A stretch of DNA of 52,510 nucleotides from Magnetococcales bacterium. GTDB lineage: Bacteria > Pseudomonadota > Magnetococcia > Magnetococcales > JADGAQ01. The DNA lies in NCBI GenBank assembly GCA_015231925.1, contig JADGAQ010000008.1, forward strand, positions 1 to 52,510, given 5' to 3'. The position numbers and the translations under genes are program-made. Shown here piece by piece: positions 1 through 52,510 of this stretch (positions are counted from its first letter, which is position 1; each line of letters begins with the position of its first letter). The notes beneath the pieces are model-generated. The model was not told the DNA's origin, searched no databases, and was given only the letters and a program-made list of their open reading frames with translations.

Positions 1-54
1 CAGGGCGCTGCCCTGGACCCGTCGGGGGGGGATAATCCCCCCCGAACCCCCGTA
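1..54 (-). repeat. GC-rich hairpin repeat, inverted copy
   Basis: This is a reverse-orientation copy of the GC-rich repeat family. Its reverse complement matches positions 12195-12247 almost base for base: a GGGGG(A)TTATCCCCC hairpin followed by GGGTCCAGGGCAGCGCCCTG. The copy touches the left edge, so its true extent and any inverted partner to the left cannot be seen. It lies about 50 bp upstream of the first small gene. Confidence 0.75.
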
Positions 55-106
55 TACCTGAACAAATACGGGAAAAGTACCTATTCGAATCGTCAAGGAG
101 ATCGTT

Positions 107-5722: not shown

Positions 5723-7675
5723 ATGTGGATTGAAATCGGCCACTTTGCGGCCCTGACGGCCCTTCTTGCGGCTCTGGTGCAATGGGTCGCGCCCATTGCC
5801 GGCCTTCGTCTGCAGCGTCCCGCCTGGATACGGGTGGGGCGGCAGGCGGCCTTTGCCGGTTTGCTCTTGTTGAGTCTGGCCAGTTTCGCCCTGATCAAGT
5901 CGTTTCTCGATCACGACTTTTCCGTGGCCTATGTGGCCAATCACGCCTCCCTCAAGCTGCCCATCTTCTATCTGGCCACCGCCATGTGGGGGGGGCATGA
6001 GGGTTCCCTGCTGCTGTGGGCCTGGTTTCTCTCCCTCTTCATCGCCATCGCCGCCTGGCGCCACTGGCAGACCCATCCCGATTCCATGCCCTGGGTACTC
6101 TCCATTCTGGGGGCGTTGCTGAGTGGATTCCTCCTGCTGGTCCTCTTCCTCTCCAGCCCCTTCGAGCGCATGATTCCACCGCCTGCGGACGGGCGGGATC
6201 TGAATCCCCTGTTGCAGGATCCGGGCATGGTGTTTCATCCGCCCTTCCTGTACATGGGCTATGTCGGTTTCGCCATTCCCTATGCCTTCGCCATGGCGGC
6301 GCTGATCACCGGTCGGGCGGGGGAGGAGTGGATTCTGGCCACCCGACGCTGGACCCTCTTCTCCTGGGCCATGTTGACCACCGGCATCATCTTCGGCGGT
6401 TACTGGGCCTATTATGAATTGGGCTGGGGTGGCTACTGGGCCTGGGATCCGGTGGAAAACGCCTCCTTCATGCCCTGGCTGACGGCTACCGCCTATCTCC
6501 ACTCCGTCATGGTTCAGGAACGGCGGGAGATGTTCAAAACCTGGAACCTCTTCCTGATCATCGCCACCTTCGCCCTGTCGTTGTTGGGTACCTTCCTGGT
6601 GCGGTCGGGGGTGCTTTCGTCGGTGCATGCCTTTGCCACCGATCCGGGTCGCGGTATTTACATCCTCGTTTTCATGGCGGTGGTGCTGGTCTTTTCTTTC
6701 GGCCTGCTGGTGCAGCGCTCCGACCAGTTGCGGACTCCCACCACGCTGGAGAGTTTGCTGTGCCGGGAGAGTGCGTTTTTGTTCAACAACCTCTTCTTCG
6801 TCGTGGCGGCGTTGACGGTGTTGCTGGGCACCCTCTTTCCTCTGGCGGTGGAGACGCTGACCGCTTCCAAGGTGACGGTGGGGGCCCCTTATTACAACAA
6901 GGTCTTCGTGCCCATCATGCTGGGCATGCTGCTGCTCATGGGGGTGGGGCCCATGCTGGCCTGGCGACGGGCGGCGGGTGGCCAGTGGAAACGCACCTTC
7001 CTTGTGCCCGGTGTGTTGGGATCGATTGCCATGGCGGGAGCCTGGGCGGCGGGGGTGCATCATCCTTACGGGCTGCTGGCGGTGCTGTTGATCTTTTTCG
7101 TGGGGGCTACCCATGTGCTGGAAGTCTGGCGTGGCGCCATGGTGCGGTCCAGACAGAGCGGGGATGGTCCCGGTACCGCCCTGTTGCGCATGATCAACCG
7201 CAACCGGCGTCGCTACGGGGGTTTTGTGGTACATTTGGGCATCTTGGTAATGGTTTCGGGATTTATCGGCTCGGGACTGTTCCAGGAGGAACGGGATCTG
7301 GTGGCCAAACCGGGGGATCGATTCCGCATCGGGGGCTGGGAGTTGAGTTTCGAGTCGATCCAGGAGACCTCCAAGCGCAACTGGACGGCCATGGAAGCGA
7401 CGATTCGGGCCAGAAAGGGTGGGCAGGAGGTGGTTTTGCTGCCCCAGAAGCGGATATACAACGAACACTCCCAACCGACCACGGAAGCGGCCATTCATTC
7501 GGTGTGGAACGAGGATTTGTATGTGGTGTTGGGGGATGCGGTCGGAGAAGGCTTTGGCATACGGTTGTACCGCAATCCGCTGGTGGGGTGGATCTGGTGG
7601 GGGGCGGGGATTGTGATGTTGGGGGTGATACTGGCGTTGATGCAGGGCAGGGGATTGCCACGGAGGAAGGAATAA
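5723..7675 (+). CDS. ccmF: Haem lyase subunit CcmF
   Basis: A large polytopic membrane protein (650 aa) that, with CcmH, attaches haem to apocytochromes c. The family motifs WGGHEGSLLLWAW (about residue 89) and the WWD-type WGGYWAWDPVENASF (about residue 240) are intact, as are conserved periplasmic histidines in FHPPFLYMGY and SVHAFATDP. About 15 hydrophobic segments are visible, with a periplasmic beta-rich domain near the C-terminus. An RBS (CCGGAGG) precedes the ATG. The gene is followed by a repeat-rich 490-bp gap before ccmG. Confidence 0.96.
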   Translation: MWIEIGHFAALTALLAALVQWVAPIAGLRLQRPAWIRVGRQAAFAGLLLLSLASFALIKSFLDHDFSVAYVANHASLKLPIFYLATAMWGGHEGSLLLWAWFLSLFIAIAAWRHWQTHPDSMPWVLSILGALLSGFLLLVLFLSSPFERMIPPPADGRDLNPLLQDPGMVFHPPFLYMGYVGFAIPYAFAMAALITGRAGEEWILATRRWTLFSWAMLTTGIIFGGYWAYYELGWGGYWAWDPVENASFMPWLTATAYLHSVMVQERREMFKTWNLFLIIATFALSLLGTFLVRSGVLSSVHAFATDPGRGIYILVFMAVVLVFSFGLLVQRSDQLRTPTTLESLLCRESAFLFNNLFFVVAALTVLLGTLFPLAVETLTASKVTVGAPYYNKVFVPIMLGMLLLMGVGPMLAWRRAAGGQWKRTFLVPGVLGSIAMAGAWAAGVHHPYGLLAVLLIFFVGATHVLEVWRGAMVRSRQSGDGPGTALLRMINRNRRRYGGFVVHLGILVMVSGFIGSGLFQEERDLVAKPGDRFRIGGWELSFESIQETSKRNWTAMEATIRARKGGQEVVLLPQKRIYNEHSQPTTEAAIHSVWNEDLYVVLGDAVGEGFGIRLYRNPLVGWIWWGAGIVMLGVILALMQGRGLPRRKE

Positions 7676-7735
7676 CGGGGGTCCGGGGGGGATTATCCCC
7701 CCCGGCGGGGTTTGGGGCGGAGCCCCAAGGTGTTG
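7675..7735 (+). repeat. GC-rich hairpin repeat, forward copy
   Basis: A full forward copy directly abutting the ccmF stop codon. It has ACGGGGGTCC, the hairpin GGGGGGATTATCCCCCC, then GGCGGGGTTTGGGGCGGAGCCCC and AAGGTGTTG. Two stem-loops are possible (GGGGGG/CCCCCC and GGGGC/GCCCC). It could act as a transcript-end structure for ccmABCDEF. Confidence 0.8.
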
Positions 7736-7749
7736 CCGTGGTGGTTTTA

Positions 7750-7802
7750 TTCGTGCGTTGTCTTTTCCTGGAATGCCATTCCAGGAAAAGACAACGCACG
7801 AA
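7750..7802. repeat. Perfect 26-bp inverted repeat (hairpin 1)
   Basis: The two 26-nt arms TTCGTGCGTTGTCTTTTCCT... are perfectly complementary around a single central C. The right arm runs into AAAAAATAA. As RNA this would be a near-continuous duplex. It is the first of three unrelated perfect palindromes in this gap. Confidence 0.9.
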
Positions 7803-7894
7803 AAAATAACGGCAGTATCTTGGCGCACTCTCCCCAACTCTGCCGAGACGGATATATTTCTCCGTATCCCCCTTTCTCCTTCTCCGGGCAATTC

Positions 7895-7942
7895 GGCCTC
7901 TTGAGTAGCCAATCAAACAGACGATTGGCTACTCAAGAGGCC
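7895..7942. repeat. Perfect 20-bp inverted repeat (hairpin 2)
   Basis: The arm GGCCTCTTGAGTAGCCAATC and its exact reverse complement are separated by an 8-nt loop (AAACAGAC). The sequence is unrelated to the flanking hairpins, so the three are not copies of one element. Confidence 0.9.
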
Positions 7943-7960
7943 AATGGCGGGCTCGCTTTG

Positions 7961-7997
7961 GGCCATTTTACCGGGATGAGGCCCCGGTAAAATGGCC
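7961..7997. repeat. Perfect 15-bp inverted repeat (hairpin 3)
   Basis: The arms GGCCATTTTACCGGG and CCCGGTAAAATGGCC flank a 7-nt loop. Outside them, GCTCGC (from 7951) and GCGAGC (near 8008) can extend the fold imperfectly. Confidence 0.9.
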
Positions 7998-8025
7998 TTG
8001 AGCGGGGCGAGCCGAAAGGAAAGAG

Positions 8026-8080
8026 GAAGGGTCAAAGGAAGGGTCAAAGGAAGGGTCAAAGGAGGAGTCAAAGGAAAAGT
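8026..8080 (+). repeat. 12-bp tandem repeat (GAAGGGTCAAAG)n
   Basis: There are three exact 12-bp units, one variant (GAGGAGTCAAAG) and a partial fifth. The array runs into the stem CTGAGGGGG...CCCCCTCAG just downstream. It completes the non-coding 7676-8169 gap between ccmF and ccmG. No promoter for ccmG could be assigned with confidence. Confidence 0.85.
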
Positions 8081-8169
8081 CCTGAGGGGGCAGCGGAGCT
8101 CCCCCTCAGACTCCCCCAACCCTTTTTACTCATTAGAAGATTAAAAGAAACAACAGGATATCCAATACC

Positions 8170-9180: not shown

Positions 9181-9230
9181 CCTTTTAATATTTTGTCTTT
9201 TAAAGTATCAAAAAAAGGAAATGTTTTGAC
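9181..9230 (+). repeat. AT-rich 55-bp repeat, forward copy (left bracket of ATPase cassette)
   Basis: A forward copy starting 16 bp after the ccmH stop, with CCTTTTAATATTTTGTC, AAGTATCAAAAAAAGGAAATG and TTTGAC. It has lost about 7 bp of the TTCTGTCC block. The facing reverse copy is at 11183-11237, so the two copies enclose the ATPase/DUF4276 genes. Confidence 0.85.
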
Positions 9231-9305
9231 TTTTTCTTTTCTAGAATAGGGTGGCGTGAGTAGACCTGAGAAGATATTGTGTTGGTCTGATGGTGGAGTG
9301 AATAA

Positions 9306-10448
9306 GTGAAATTGGGAAGACCAAAACTAAGTGAAGTTAACTTGGCTGGATTCAAGTCAATCGGTCCAAGTGGTCAGACCATAAAATTGGGTGATATAAC
9401 AATATTGCTTGGGGCTAATGGGGCTGGGAAAAGTAACTTGGTATCCTTTTTTTATCTGATTAACTTTATAACAAATAAAGCATTGCAAAAATTCATCGGG
9501 CAACAGGGTGGGGCCGATTCCATTCTTTATTATGGGGCAAAGGTTACGGAGAAGATTGACTTCACCCTCTCATTCGACCAAAAAGAAGGTGGCGAACATC
9601 AATCCTTTCGATACCAGGTTGCATTGGGTCACAGTCTGCCGGACAGGCTCTTTTTGGCGGATGAAAGGGTGATTTATCCTAGTTCAGAAAGCGTTGAAGA
9701 ATATAGTATCGGATCGGGAAGTCAGGAATCAGGGCTTGCGGACCATGAAGAGCCGGCAGTAAGGTACGTTCATACTATTCTTTCACAAATGCGCACCTAC
9801 CAGTTTCATGATACCTCCGATACGGCAAAAATAAAAGCCAGTGGTTACTTGGGGGATTGTCGTTACCTGAGAAGCAATGCAGGAAATCTGGCAGCTTTTC
9901 TTCGAATGATGAAATGCTCTGAAAAATATAAAATATATTATGATCGTATTATGCGGCATATTCAGAAAATTATGCCTCAATTCGGTGGCTTTGAATTGGC
10001 GGAATGTTCCAAAGAGGAAGATGCCGGATATGGGATGTTGAATTGGCATGAGATAAATCGTGCCTCCGAAGCTCTTTTCGGACCACATCAAATTTCGGAT
10101 GGCTCATTACGTTTTATGGCCTTGGCGACATTATTGTTGCAGCCGCCGCAATTGATTCCGAAGGTGATTGTGCTGGATGAACCGGAATTGGGGCTGCATC
10201 CGGCCGCTTTGAGGGAATTGGCAGCCATGATCCGCATGGCCGCCGCCCATTGTCAGGTGATCGTCGCCACGCAATCGACCCGGTTGGTGGATGAATTCCA
10301 GGCGGAAGAAATTGTGGTCGTGGAACGGGATCTGTCCAACCGGTGCAGTGTGTTTAAACGTTTAAACACGGCGGCCTTGTCGGATTGGTTGGCTCGATAC
10401 AGTCTTTCGGAGTTATGGGAGAAAAATGTTCTTGGAGGGCTTCCGTGA
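9306..10448 (+). CDS. AAA-family (SMC/RecF-like) ATPase, putative defence protein
   Basis: A predicted cytosolic ABC/SMC-like ATPase of 380 aa in the AAA_21/COG4637 style. Walker A is at 36-43 (GANGAGKS) after a typical VNLAGFKSIG N-terminus. The signature-like ISDGSLRFMAL is at about 263 and Walker B with D-loop VIVLDEPELGLHP at about 286-298. A switch-like VIVATQSTRLVDEF follows. No nuclease domain is fused. The next gene (DUF4276) overlaps it by 4 bp, so the pair is one translational unit. Base composition is visibly more AT-rich than neighbouring genes, suggesting acquisition. ATPase plus small partner recalls two-gene anti-phage systems such as PARIS or Septu. That role is inference. Confidence 0.85.
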   Translation: MKLGRPKLSEVNLAGFKSIGPSGQTIKLGDITILLGANGAGKSNLVSFFYLINFITNKALQKFIGQQGGADSILYYGAKVTEKIDFTLSFDQKEGGEHQSFRYQVALGHSLPDRLFLADERVIYPSSESVEEYSIGSGSQESGLADHEEPAVRYVHTILSQMRTYQFHDTSDTAKIKASGYLGDCRYLRSNAGNLAAFLRMMKCSEKYKIYYDRIMRHIQKIMPQFGGFELAECSKEEDAGYGMLNWHEINRASEALFGPHQISDGSLRFMALATLLLQPPQLIPKVIVLDEPELGLHPAALRELAAMIRMAAAHCQVIVATQSTRLVDEFQAEEIVVVERDLSNRCSVFKRLNTAALSDWLARYSLSELWEKNVLGGLP

Positions 10449-11164
10449 ATTTCATTCGCCTCCATGTCACCGGGGAGGGACAAACGGAACAGGCTTTTGT
10501 AAAAGATTTATTGGCAGACTATCTCAGCCAATTCCATGTTTTCACGGATGCCCGATGTGTCTTGACAAGCAAAGATAATAAAGCTGCTAGAGAATATCGA
10601 GGGGGATTGATCAACTATCAAAAGGCTAGGCAGGATATTGTCAGCTGGATGAAAGAAGATAACCATCCGGAATGCCGTTTTACCACCATGTTCGATTTGT
10701 ATGCCCTGCCGGATGATTTCCCAGGCTATCAAGATGCCCAGCGACAAACAAATCCTTATGTCAAAACTCGTATTCTTGAAGAAGCCATGGCGAAGGATAT
10801 CAACGATTGGCGATTCATTCCTTATCTGCAATTGCATGAATTTGAAGCATTTATTTTTGCCGATCCAAAAAAACTGAACTGGGAATATCTGGAACATGAT
10901 GAACCTATTGCCAAATTGGTGGCAATAGCCCTTTCCCAGGATCCGGAACTGATCAACGAAGGCCCGGAGACGGCACCATCCAAGCGGATTTTGACCCACA
11001 TACCAGAATACGATAAAGTTGTTGGGGGCGGTATGACTGTTCAGAAAATTGGTTTAGAAACCCTGCGTGTTAAATGTCCTCACTTTGATGCGTGGGTGCG
11101 TAGTCTGGAGTCTTTAACCAATGCAACAAATAAAAATCTTAACGAAACCCTATGGCGCTTCTGA
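10445..11164 (+). CDS. DUF4276 family protein, putative TOPRIM-like effector of the ATPase
   Basis: 239 aa, starting at GTG 10445 inside the ATPase stop (GTGA overlap). DUF4276 features are visible: N-terminal HVTGEGQTEQAF (Glu11, Glu15), TTMFDLYALPDDFPG (80-94, Asp84), YLQLHEFEAFIFADP (127-141), APSKRI (177-182) and KCPHFDAWV (210-218). The EGxTE start and later acidic patches resemble TOPRIM nucleases (OLD, DUF4435/AriB), but that is an inference from motif pattern, not a demonstrated activity. In many genomes DUF4276 genes neighbour ATPases of this kind. A longer start at 10385 would overlap the ATPase by 64 bp and lacks the family N-terminus. Confidence 0.82.
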   Translation: MNFIRLHVTGEGQTEQAFVKDLLADYLSQFHVFTDARCVLTSKDNKAAREYRGGLINYQKARQDIVSWMKEDNHPECRFTTMFDLYALPDDFPGYQDAQRQTNPYVKTRILEEAMAKDINDWRFIPYLQLHEFEAFIFADPKKLNWEYLEHDEPIAKLVAIALSQDPELINEGPETAPSKRILTHIPEYDKVVGGGMTVQKIGLETLRVKCPHFDAWVRSLESLTNATNKNLNETLWRF

Positions 11165-11182
11165 TATGAAGAAATGCATCAA

Positions 11183-11237
11183 CGTCAAAGGATAGAACAT
11201 TTCCTTTTTTTGATACTTTAAAGGCAAAATATTAAAC
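11183..11237 (-). repeat. AT-rich 55-bp repeat, reverse copy (right bracket of ATPase cassette)
   Basis: Reads GTCAAAGGATAGAACATTTC, then TTTTTTTGATACTTTAAAGGCAAAATATTAAA. It starts 18 bp after the DUF4276 stop. Its outer end overlaps the convergent prmC gene: the prmC TAA stop (11232-11234) lies inside the repeat. Confidence 0.88.
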
Positions 11238-12169: not shown

Positions 12170-12194
12170 TTTTTATTCTGTAACTTTTCAGATA

Positions 12195-12326
12195 TACGGG
12201 GGTTCGGGGGGGATTATCCCCCCGACGGGTCCAGGGCAGCGCCCTGGGACTCTTCCGTTTGCTGTTGACTTCCGACCCCCTGGGGTCCAGGGGGCACCCC
12301 TGGGACTTTTCCTTTCGCCGTTGACC
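12195..12326 (+). repeat. GC-rich repeats nested inside an AT-rich pair
   Basis: Positions 12195-12247 are a full GC-rich unit (ACGGGGGTTC, a GGGGGATTATCCCCC hairpin, GGGTCCAGGGCAGCGCCCTG), essentially identical to the inverse of positions 1-54. A second, diverged unit follows (CCCCCTGGGGTCCAGGGGGCACC). Each unit ends with a related GGGACT(C/T)TTCC...GTTGAC tail. Positions 12327-12413 are AT-rich and show nothing else. Confidence 0.8.
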
Positions 12327-12413
12327 TGATCTTGTTGCACTGTGCAGGGGTCTGAATGGTTACTTTATTCTTTTCTATAAATATTTTATTTAATAAATAA
12401 CAAATACAGAAAA

Positions 12414-42038: not shown

Positions 42039-42077
42039 CCTGGTTTTTTCGTCGGCGAGATATAATAAATTATTTTG

Positions 42078-42266
42078 ATTTTCAATATTTTATCTTTTAA
42101 GTATCAAAAAAAGGAAATGTTCTGTCCGTTGACTTTTCCTCAGTCAAAAGAACAAATTGCAAAACGGCGAAGCAATGGGTCTTGATTAGCTAAACGAATA
42201 AAAAAAGAAACGTCAAAGGACAGAACATTTCCTTTTTTTGATACTTAAAAGATAAAATATTGAAAG
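42078..42266. repeat. Paired inverted AT-rich repeats (MITE-like), 78-bp core
   Basis: The left arm 42078-42133 and right arm 42212-42266 are among the best conserved copies (GTCAAAGGACAGAACATTTC ... AATATTGAAAG). They lie between the divergent starts/ends of the HD-GYP gene and smpB. The outer flanks TTTTGA and TCAAAA extend the symmetry by a few bases. Confidence 0.92.
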
Positions 42267-42339
42267 TCAAAAGATCAAAAGCATAACCCGGCAGGACCTC
42301 GGGAGTTTTGCAACTCCTTCCTGCATGATCGGACGGTGT

Positions 42340-50757: not shown

Positions 50758-52065
50758 ATGGGCATGAAGATTTTGCTGGTGGGAAGTGGCGGGCGTGAAC
50801 ACGCCCTGGCCTGGAAGATTGCCCGTTCTCCCCTGGTGGAGCGTCTGTGGTGTGCCCCGGGCAACGCCGGCATGGCTCGGGAGGGCAAATGTGTCTCCAT
50901 TCAGGCGGATGATGTGGATGCCCTGGTGCGTTTCGCCAGGGAGAAGCAGATCGATCTGGTGGTGGTGGGGCCGGAAGTATCCCTGGTGCTGGGCCTGGTG
51001 GATGCCCTGAATGCGGTCGGCATCGCCGCCTTCGGTCCGAGTCGGGCGGCGGCGGAGATCGAGGGCTCCAAGGTCTTCATGAAACAGGTGTTGAACAAGG
51101 CGGGCATTCTGACGGCGGGTCACGGGGTATTCACCGACATTCAGGCGGCCCGGGCCTATGTGCAGGGGCAGGGAGCGCCCATCGTGATCAAGGCATCGGG
51201 TCTGGCGGCGGGCAAGGGGGTGACGGTTTGCCACTCCCTGCCGATGGCCATGGAGACCCTGAACCGCATCATGGTGCAGCGGGAGTTGGGCAGCGCCGGC
51301 GAAACCGTGGTGGTCGAGGAGTATCTGGAAGGGGAGGAGGCCTCTTTCCTCGTTCTGGTGGATGGCAAGAACGTCATTCCCCTGGCCGGTTGCCAGGACC
51401 ATAAAGCACTGGGAGAGGGGGACACCGGTCCCAACACCGGCGGCATGGGGGCCTACTCCCCGGCGCCGGTGTTGAGTCAGCGCCTGACCCAGCGGGTTCT
51501 CGATCAGATCATCGAACCCACGGTGGCCACCCTGGCCGCCATGGGGCGTCCCTATCGCGGGGTGCTGTATGCGGGACTGATGATCGACGGATCGCGGATT
51601 CAGGTGTTGGAGTACAACGCCCGCTTCGGAGATCCGGAGACCCAGCCTCTCATGATGCGGATGAAGTCCGATCTGGTGCCGCTGATGATGGCGGCTTCCG
51701 GCGGTTCGCTGGCGGATTGCGCCATCGAGTGGGATCCGCGCACGGCGTTGTGCGTGGTGATGGCCTCCGGGGGGTATCCCATGTCGTATCGCAAGGGGTT
51801 GCCGATTTCCGGTTTGGATACGGTGGCCAATCTGGAGGATGTGCAGGTTTTTCATGCCGGCACCGCCCAGAAGGGTCAGACGCTGGTTACCGACGGCGGG
51901 CGGGTGCTGGGGGTGACGGCCCTGGGCGAAAACGCCACGGCGGCGCGGCAACGGGCTTACGAGGCGGTACGTCTCATTCGTTGGGAAGAGGCCTATTACC
52001 GGCGGGATATCGGTTATCGGGCGGTGGCGCGGGAAGCGGAAGAGGAGTATCCGGACCAGGCCTGA
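50758..52065 (+). CDS. purD: Phosphoribosylamine-glycine ligase
   Basis: An ATP-grasp enzyme of purine synthesis joining phosphoribosylamine and glycine. N-terminal ILLVGSGGREHALAWKIARS, GPEVSLVLGLVDAL, FGPSRAAAEIEGSKVFMK, APIVIKASGLAAGKGV, VVVEEYLEGEEASFLVLVDG, DHKALGEGDTGPNTGGMGAYSPAP and the metal-ligating VLEYNARFGDPETQ are all intact. 435 aa. ATG 50758 has AAGG 8 nt upstream; ATG 50764 is also possible. Purine partner purH is 1.4 kb upstream but separated by two terminators. Confidence 0.97.
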   Translation: MGMKILLVGSGGREHALAWKIARSPLVERLWCAPGNAGMAREGKCVSIQADDVDALVRFAREKQIDLVVVGPEVSLVLGLVDALNAVGIAAFGPSRAAAEIEGSKVFMKQVLNKAGILTAGHGVFTDIQAARAYVQGQGAPIVIKASGLAAGKGVTVCHSLPMAMETLNRIMVQRELGSAGETVVVEEYLEGEEASFLVLVDGKNVIPLAGCQDHKALGEGDTGPNTGGMGAYSPAPVLSQRLTQRVLDQIIEPTVATLAAMGRPYRGVLYAGLMIDGSRIQVLEYNARFGDPETQPLMMRMKSDLVPLMMAASGGSLADCAIEWDPRTALCVVMASGGYPMSYRKGLPISGLDTVANLEDVQVFHAGTAQKGQTLVTDGGRVLGVTALGENATAARQRAYEAVRLIRWEEAYYRRDIGYRAVAREAEEEYPDQA

Positions 52066-52074
52066 GAAATCAAT

Positions 52075-52510
52075 ACGGGGGTCCGGGGGATCCCCCCCGG
52101 CGGGGTTCGGGGCAGCGCCCCGAGGTGTTGACGTTGACGTAGCGGGTCGAAGCCCTGAAGAAAAGCGCACCAACCCGATCTCCCGCACGATCTTGGTAAA
52201 TGCTTCGACCCGCCGGAGGGGGCAAGGGGAGGGCCTCATCCTCCCCATCCTTTTTGGACGTGCCCATTCCGCCTTGGTTCGGGTTTGCTTCGAGAGTCAT
52301 TCTTTTGTTCGAATGGCCCCGGCTTCGTCTTGTTGGTGCGTTCAAGGATGGGGAGGATGAGACCCTCCCCTTGCCCCCTCCGGGCGGGTCGAAGAGGTAA
52401 CAGGGTTTGGCAGCAGTTCGGAGTTGGTCATTTCACTTTAAAGCTTCGACCCGCCAAGGCCACGTCAACACCTCGGGGCGCTGCCCCGAACCCCGCCGGG
52501 GGGGATAATC
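52075..52510. repeat. Triply nested inverted-repeat region after purD
   Basis: The outer arms are 52092-52133 and 52463-52504, a perfect 42-bp inverted pair of the GC-rich family (GGCGGGGTTCGGGGCAGCGC core, ending TGTTGACG). The middle arms are GCGGGTCGAAGC (52142-52153) and GCTTCGACCCGC (52443-52454). The inner arms are 52203-52252 and 52344-52394, about 50 bp with one mismatch and one insertion, loop about 90 bp. The motif GCGGGTCGAAG thus occurs four times in alternating orientation. No ORF with an RBS is supported. The right copy is cut off by the window edge. Confidence 0.88.

Follow-up and report, generated by a model that had tools for sequence, protein, structure and literature searches.

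A palindrome behind purD belongs to a large family of hairpin-rich repeats, probable remnants of small mobile DNA elements, in a Magnetococcales genome

The palindrome located behind purD is real and far beyond chance, and it is one member of a large family of non-coding, self-complementary repeats of roughly 450 bases that are scattered behind genes. The family probably consists of remnants of small mobile DNA elements, in which the hairpins were kept matched by copying events and not by selection on RNA. The window analyzed is a whole contig of 52,510 bases (C8) from a source genome of 4.51 Mb, 358 contigs, and 97.4% completeness, and its right edge is the contig end, located at the center of hairpin H1'. 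We recognized no earlier description of this repeat family in the open-access literature.

The palindrome starts 7 bp after the purD stop codon, and its features are given in Table 1. A first-pass annotation of this DNA had reported three concentric tiers of inverted repeats, with one sequence in four alternating copies, extending to the right edge of the window. The inverted-repeat pairs were all recovered, as were the four copies of GCGGGTCGAAG in alternating orientation, and the edge that the structure reaches corresponds to the end of the contig. The outer pair is exact, as had been stated, with a length of 45 bp instead of 42 bp, whereas the inner pair, previously given as about 50 bp, comprises 40 bp, namely, 21 and 18 bp flanking one mismatch. 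The 12-bp middle pair (52142-52153 with 52443-52454) is also present, but these 12-mers pair locally too (52142-52153 with 52202-52213 and 52383-52394 with 52444-52455). Two local H3 hairpins describe the middle tier better than a concentric layer does, because across copies each H3 self-pairs, even in those with different H3 types in their two arms. By comparison, the longest inverted repeat in 200 Markov-1 copies of 450 bp was 9.7 bp on average and 16 bp at most, and it ranged from 14 to 18 bp in five Markov-1 windows of 52.5 kb. Folding of the palindrome alone resulted in -171 kcal/mol for DNA (z = -17.5) and -314 kcal/mol for RNA (z = -19.3), and in both cases none of 100 shuffled sequences folded as well.

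Table 1. Coordinates of the purD palindrome and of related elements in the window
Feature	Coordinates	Strand	Description
purD	50758..52065	+	TIGR00877, 538 bits; gene call
Whole element	52073..52510	.	Two inverted arms flanking a variable center; right end truncated by the contig end
Left end motif ATACGGGGGTCC and hairpin H1	52073..52098	+	H1 shortened in the purD copy
Outer arm, left	52090..52134	+	45 bp, exact
Hairpin H2, TCGGGGCAGCGCCCCGA	52107..52123	+
Hairpin H3, left arm	52142..52213	+	Type a; 12-bp stem, 48-nt loop
Inner arm, left	52213..52252	+	40 bp, one mismatch with its partner; contains hairpin H4 (52226-52246)
Variable center	52253..52343	.
Inner arm, right	52344..52383	-	Contains hairpin H4' (52350-52370)
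Hairpin H3', right arm	52383..52455	-	Type a; 12-bp stem, 49-nt loop
Outer arm, right	52462..52506	-	45 bp, exact; contains H2'; contig stops within H1'
Second element of the H1-H2 kind	7672..8120	.	H1-H2 block at the left and alternative outer module CCTGAGGGGGCAGCGGAGCTCCCCCTCAG at the right, along with other hairpins
T2 copy, 184 bp	12180..12363	+	Exact 8-bp repeat TTTATTCT on both flanks; inside an AT-rich palindrome
T2-type end	1..55	-	Left contig end

Read inward, an arm consists of H1, H2, a linker, H3, and H4, followed by the variable center and the mirror arm; all four hairpins are GC-rich. H1 is CCGGGGGGGATTATCCCCCCCGG in most copies, the linker between H2 and H3 is rich in GTTGACG, H3 is a stem of about 12 bp that encloses about 48 nt, and H4 is either GGGGAGG...CCTCCCC or a version made of G and C only. 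Arms of type a combine H3 GGGTCGAAG with H4 GGGGAGG, and those of type b combine H3 GGTCCGCNGC with H4 GGGGGG; intermediate arms also exist, such as those with H3 GGTCCGAAGC and a type a H4. Among 33 paired copies, 11 contained two a arms, 12 contained two b arms, and 10 were mixed, compared to 16.8 mixed copies expected (P = 0.02). Since H3 self-pairs within each arm, mixed copies included, and since arm types can be mixed, the palindrome is composed of two inverted, partly exchangeable arms and not of three concentric tiers. The outer flank motif CCATCTTGGGATGTTGAG was considered as a further general tier and rejected, with only 9 sites at up to 3 mismatches. In copies C193 (locus L063) and C235 (locus L037), short tandem runs of GTTGACGTGCGCC, GTTGACGTGTTCC, and GTCCGTTCCT were observed in linkers and centers, and the linker run of C193 is mirrored across both arms.

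With 40 of the 384 candidates scored, a BLAST search of the source genome with 445 bp of the purD element retrieved at least 123 matches; the best full-length matches were 74 to 81% identical, and many places were matched on both strands. The H2 hairpin was present at 126 sites (control, 1) and the 18-bp end motif in 406 copies at up to 2 mismatches (control, 0), the latter including the ends of a smaller sister element, termed T2. As some ends belong to T2 and some arms are solitary, the number of large elements is bounded only roughly, at about 60 from half of the H2 sites and about 200 from half of the ends. The loci were drawn from matches to the purD element, and elements with other cores are consequently under-counted; the outer flanks comprised 100 distinct sequences, some of which are T2 ends and a few of which look like chance matches. 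The copies read are short, carry inverted ends, and are non-coding as judged from ORF lists and gene calls only. The large element also forms high-copy, intergenic pairs of inverted palindromic units, as do REPINs and BIMEs, the latter being the name of the Escherichia coli mosaics.

This genome-wide search bears on how the purD copy arose. Arms recur in pairs, with 33 two-arm copies retrieved by script, and the possibility that they exist elsewhere only as single, unpaired copies can be dismissed, although single arms occur too. Repeated fold-back duplication at the purD locus, as initially proposed, is unsupported: because the entire structure is found again at numerous unrelated loci, the purD copy need not have arisen at purD. 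The same recurrence makes mis-assembly, named as a possible refutation in the first-pass annotation, unlikely. The idea of an artefact of the metagenome bin draws on the palindrome reaching the contig end and on the 12 of 100 perfect end motifs listed that start no more than 60 bp from the beginning of a contig, compared to about 0.5 expected from 358 contigs. However, numerous copies are embedded within contigs, flanked by unique sequence on either side, and are at least 20% different from one another, and a related arm is present in another MAG (locus L158), so that we give this explanation hardly any credence. The excess of end motifs at contig starts, along with the contig stopping in H1', indicates instead that the repeat breaks the assembly, which helps to explain the assembly breaks in the source genome.

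The copies are located just behind stop codons and rarely between divergent genes. The orientation of flanking genes was determined for 42 rows, which include one element twice as well as some single arms: 16 were convergent, 20 were tandem, 1 was divergent, and 5 were open. The difference between 16 convergent and 1 divergent rows corresponds to P = 0.0003, and the window's own 40 neighboring gene pairs comprise 3 convergent, 3 divergent, and 34 tandem pairs. In all 17 tandem rows scored, the element was closer to the preceding stop than to the next start; the remaining 3 of the 20 were dropped due to approximate coordinates or a far gene. Gene calling was seeded with purD, purH, and the gene preceding them, and in an orientation control with 10 flanking proteins of five elements, Pfam matches were obtained in the called frame for 9. 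We also inspected purD in relatives, for which 13 loci on the plus strand were available (own locus excluded, loci matched on the minus strand left out), 11 of them with a usable stop. A start that we take from its motif to be purE-like follows close behind purD in 10 of these 11 loci and is absent in one, and none of the 11 contains a GGGG-n(2-8)-CCCC hairpin in the 420 bases after purD.

Stem covariation was analyzed over 17 H3/H4 pairs. Arms were selected at 9 or more of 12 paired bases in H3, which resulted in 90 unique arms, and in 88 once register duplicates were removed; the best stems were of 10 to 12 at 122 of the 125 H4 anchors and of 7 to 8 at the other 3, compared to mostly 6 to 8 in 625 shuffled segments. 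In the 88 arms, 96.4% of the cells were paired, versus 84.9% after shuffling; 33 unpaired cells lie at one pair, where the H4 of type b was imperfectly aligned. There were 162 double-changed cells, versus 62 ± 8 in shuffles and 0 to 25 in slid controls, and much of this covariation reflects the shared contrast between a and b or common descent, with fewer independent events than cells. Neither the count of pairs showing at least one double change nor that of pair types exceeded the shuffles (413 and 397 of 500, respectively), which is expected because two families share the columns.

The changes that occur in the stems are largely two-sided. Among 1,080 H3 cells, departures from pairing were G.T in 9, A.C in 13, and other combinations in 16, and there was no preference of G.U over A.C (9 versus 13, P = 0.52). 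At the closing pair of H2, where both letters were free in the search, we found C-G at 73, T-A at 16, C.A at 1, and T.G at none of 90 sites. One H3 position takes A-T, T-A, and C-G, with the partner matching each time, and double transversions of this kind cannot pass through a wobble pair. Template switching has been reported to create and mend stems (PMC8794818), and for two-sided stem changes with few wobble intermediates it fits better than stepwise RNA compensation. Replication forks may switch template at imperfect hairpins, and one stem strand would then be rewritten from the other, so that both sides change in a single step while the loops drift. We rejected concerted evolution of the two arms of a whole element: the linkers were slightly more alike within than between elements (P = 0.018, 31 pairs), whereas loops (P = 0.34) and H4 (P = 0.78) were not (33 pairs each).

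An alternative explanation is that the element is a functional RNA, either a bidirectional terminator or a 3'-end mRNA stabilizer, with stems kept by selection at the transcript level. Its location behind stop codons, its near-absence between divergent genes, the 17 of 17 scored tandem rows closer to the stop, and the z score of -19.3 for the RNA fold of the purD copy all agree with such a role, and the REPs of other genomes are reported to be placed likewise (PMC3733652). In addition, H4 of the purD copy is followed by ATCCTTTTTG and was scored as terminator-like. On reading, however, the T run is mostly absent from the other copies, and terminator-like matches in the stretch were at chance level (2 found versus 3.0 expected). 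The H3 departures without G.U preference and the lack of T.G at the H2 closing pair also disagree with transcript-level selection, no Rfam family matched the window at the gathering score, and promoter avoidance also explains the placement. We therefore regard a functional RNA as unlikely, although readthrough RNA may well fold into a very stable 3' hairpin that is tolerated and that may end or protect the transcript, a role that would be passive or mildly useful.

Evidence on mobility comes from T2, which is 119 to 130 or 184 to 187 bp long and has ATACGGGGGTYCGGGGGGGATTATCCCCCC in common with the large element. Among the 10 T2 rows with both ends, an exact 8-bp duplication was present in 4, a match of 6/8 in 1, and matches of 5 or fewer in 5. 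ISDge4 (ISBst12 group, IS66 family) is reported to have the termini GTGACTACTCAGCA / GTAACTGCTCAGCA and an 8-bp repeat (PMC12898284), and IS66 ends are stated to start with GTAA and to carry 8-bp repeats (PMC11946415). The T2 termini, GTATCTGTTCAGA / GTAACTATTCAGA, resemble those of ISDge4, the nearest published terminus found (PMC12898284), and 8-bp duplications occur in both; T2 hence displays the GTAA-type termini and the 8-bp duplication of an IS66/ISBst12-type MITE. T2 inserts were found in the center of large-element copy C108, with an exact 8-bp duplication, and inside the H3 stem of copy C113, with a 6/8 duplication. These inserts demonstrate nesting by transposition for neighboring copies, and the initial suggestion that one inverted element was inserted within another holds at the level of the genome, by means of the T2 inserts in these two copies and in an AT-rich palindrome. 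The contig also starts within a T2-type end, and both of its ends hence fall in hairpin repeats.

For the large element, mobility is inferred. Its outward consensus, about CTTTTCAGTMATA, is in register with the T2 terminus, and these ends suggest that a common mobilization system may serve T2 and the large element. No target-site duplication (8 bp, up to 1 mismatch) was detected in 27 large-element end pairs, a few of which span a T2 insert, versus a shuffled mean of 1.7; duplications are therefore seen in 4 of 10 rows for T2 and not for the large element. An IS630 partner had been suggested by the TA at both ends and was rejected, since no IS630 transposase was found in the genome and TA is not strict. 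Among the 100 listed of 406 ends, no end-motif pairs 1 to 4 kb apart were noted.

Taken together, we lean towards the interpretation that the purD palindrome is a high-copy, non-autonomous, compound MITE- or BIME-like palindrome that was spread in trans by an IS66/ISBst12-type transposase, has its stems kept by template switching, and is sited behind stop codons. A transposase of this type, acting in trans, may spread the large element, which is suggested because T2 has the common end block, ISBst12-like termini, and 8-bp duplications. Following their spread, copies would decay, take T2 insertions, and swap arms. Like MITEs, the large element is short and non-coding, with inverted ends and many copies, but it differs from them by its lack of a duplication, and by long, structured arms of exchangeable type, and no Y1 or IS630 partner gene was found for it.

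A broader proposal, which we consider doubtful, is that template switching drives the evolution of a whole class of DNA elements built as hairpin chains. In such a class, stems would be rewritten in one replication step, giving rise to new stem families (a, b, and intermediates such as GGTCCGAAGC) without RNA selection, arms would be shuffled as cassettes, and the H1/H2 core would have spread across Magnetococcales, Clostridiales, and Synergistaceae. The repeat family itself would be a natural, many-copy experiment on whether paired changes in hairpins come from selection on structure or from a mutation that copies one side to the other. It offers matched H2 states (73 and 16 sites) with almost no intermediates between them and 88 arms that sample several H3 stem families. 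It also calls for caution, in that covariation in such repeats does not by itself constitute evidence for a functional RNA.

Two further explanations concern the origin and multiplication of the palindromes. One is a REPIN- or BIME-type element moved by a Y1 (RAYT) transposase, which would agree with the inverted pairs of palindromic units, their high copy number, their placement behind genes, and the compensatory stem changes, all of which are reported for BIMEs, REPs, or REPINs (PMC3116915, PMC3733652). Nevertheless, a search for the Y1 transposase (PF01797, E ≤ 0.001) retrieved none in the source genome, which at 97.4% completeness may have missed such a gene, while 5 of 14 control genomes were positive. 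Furthermore, the large element has four hairpins in each arm and a length of about 450 bp, as opposed to the two units about 71 bp apart described for REPINs (PMC3116915). We consider this origin very unlikely. The large element fits no named family in full: no RAYT transposase was found, as a REPIN would require, and no duplication, as a MITE would require.

The other explanation is mutational build-up, in which fold-back copying and the loss of hairpin surveillance create and multiply palindromes without transposition of the large element. SbcCD cleaves hairpins, and SbcD (TIGR00619) was below the cut-off in the source genome (40.8 versus 77.65 bits). All 7 genomes of the same order with at least 9 H2-core sites were without SbcD above the cut-off, whereas none of the 22 SbcD-positive genomes reached 9 sites (P = 0.009, uncorrected for kinship and incomplete MAGs). 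The element at 7672-8120 also harbors near-perfect hairpins of 20 to 30 bp for which no family resemblance was noted. In contrast, the sampled load of inverted repeats did not differ between 14 SbcD-positive and 16 SbcD-negative genomes (P = 0.97, 0.54, and 0.66); in this sample of 30 genomes, the rate printed over 80 kb for the source genome rests on 60 kb, one of four stretches being N, and the other 29 genomes contributed 44.5 to 80 kb. Core copy number and the direct sample thus disagreed on SbcCD loss as a cause of palindrome load, and we claim no such link. Moreover, many same-ended copies at unrelated loci demand a dispersal step, and build-up without transposition of the large element appears improbable.

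Relatives of the element were searched for in other genomes. The purD-element query matched 21 of 47 other genomes of the same order at E ≤ 0.001 and none of 13 genomes from other orders of the phylum. Among the matches listed, those in the same order mostly correspond to the H1-H2 block; the core was matched only in the Magnetococcales MAG G008, one contig of which contains an arm like that of the purD element. The H2 core pattern was present in 16 of 61 genomes, and its abundance varied largely, from 117 in the source genome, 111 in G020, 94 in G028, 63 in G025, and 58 in G018 to between 1 and 11 in eleven others. At the relatives' loci read, the H1-H2 block is found on its own close to genes or on both sides of other palindromic cores. 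In G032, a gene with a purH-like end at locus L058 is directly followed by a nested palindromic element whose core is a different one (about 1185-1560).

A 31-position H1/H2 pattern matched 96 stretches among 84,980 named genomes, and the 80 that were listed belong to 12 MAGs, of which 5 are Magnetococcales, 2 are Clostridiales, and 5 are Synergistaceae. The exact core pattern had no match in the named genomes, which possibly do not include the source genome. The GC-rich double-hairpin blocks of other genomes have the H1/H2 core pattern in common with the large element and differ from it in their flanks and cores, and the Clostridiales loci read place the block inside another inverted repeat. 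At five loci of Clostridiales MAGs (L080, L091, L130, L137, and L144), the double-hairpin core forms units of roughly 130 bp with an end inverted repeat like ATGACTATTC...GGATAGTCAT, and these units look like another MITE.

Other repeats are also present in the window. The element at 7672-8120 is full of near-perfect hairpins of 20 to 30 bp, including one at 7746-7806 in which 30 bp enclose a loop of 1 nt. An unrelated AT-rich palindrome at 42080-42253 (within 42050-42290) has exact arms of 48 bp and the end motif AAAAAAGGAAATGTTCTGTCC, and this repeat gave at least 93 matches in the source genome (40 of 300 candidates scored), many of them on both strands. Further AT-rich end motifs lie near positions 1436, 12143/12440, 22040/22157, 24252/24361, 28278, 36618, and 44690/44861. 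At 9185-11225, two genes lie between AT-rich repeat ends (9211 and 11190); their best scores in PADLOC are with HEC-01A (402 bits) and HEC-01B (254 bits), and they match Pfam AAA_21 and DUF4276. Judging by these profile scores, the HEC-01A/HEC-01B-like genes form a candidate anti-phage pair enclosed by repeat ends.
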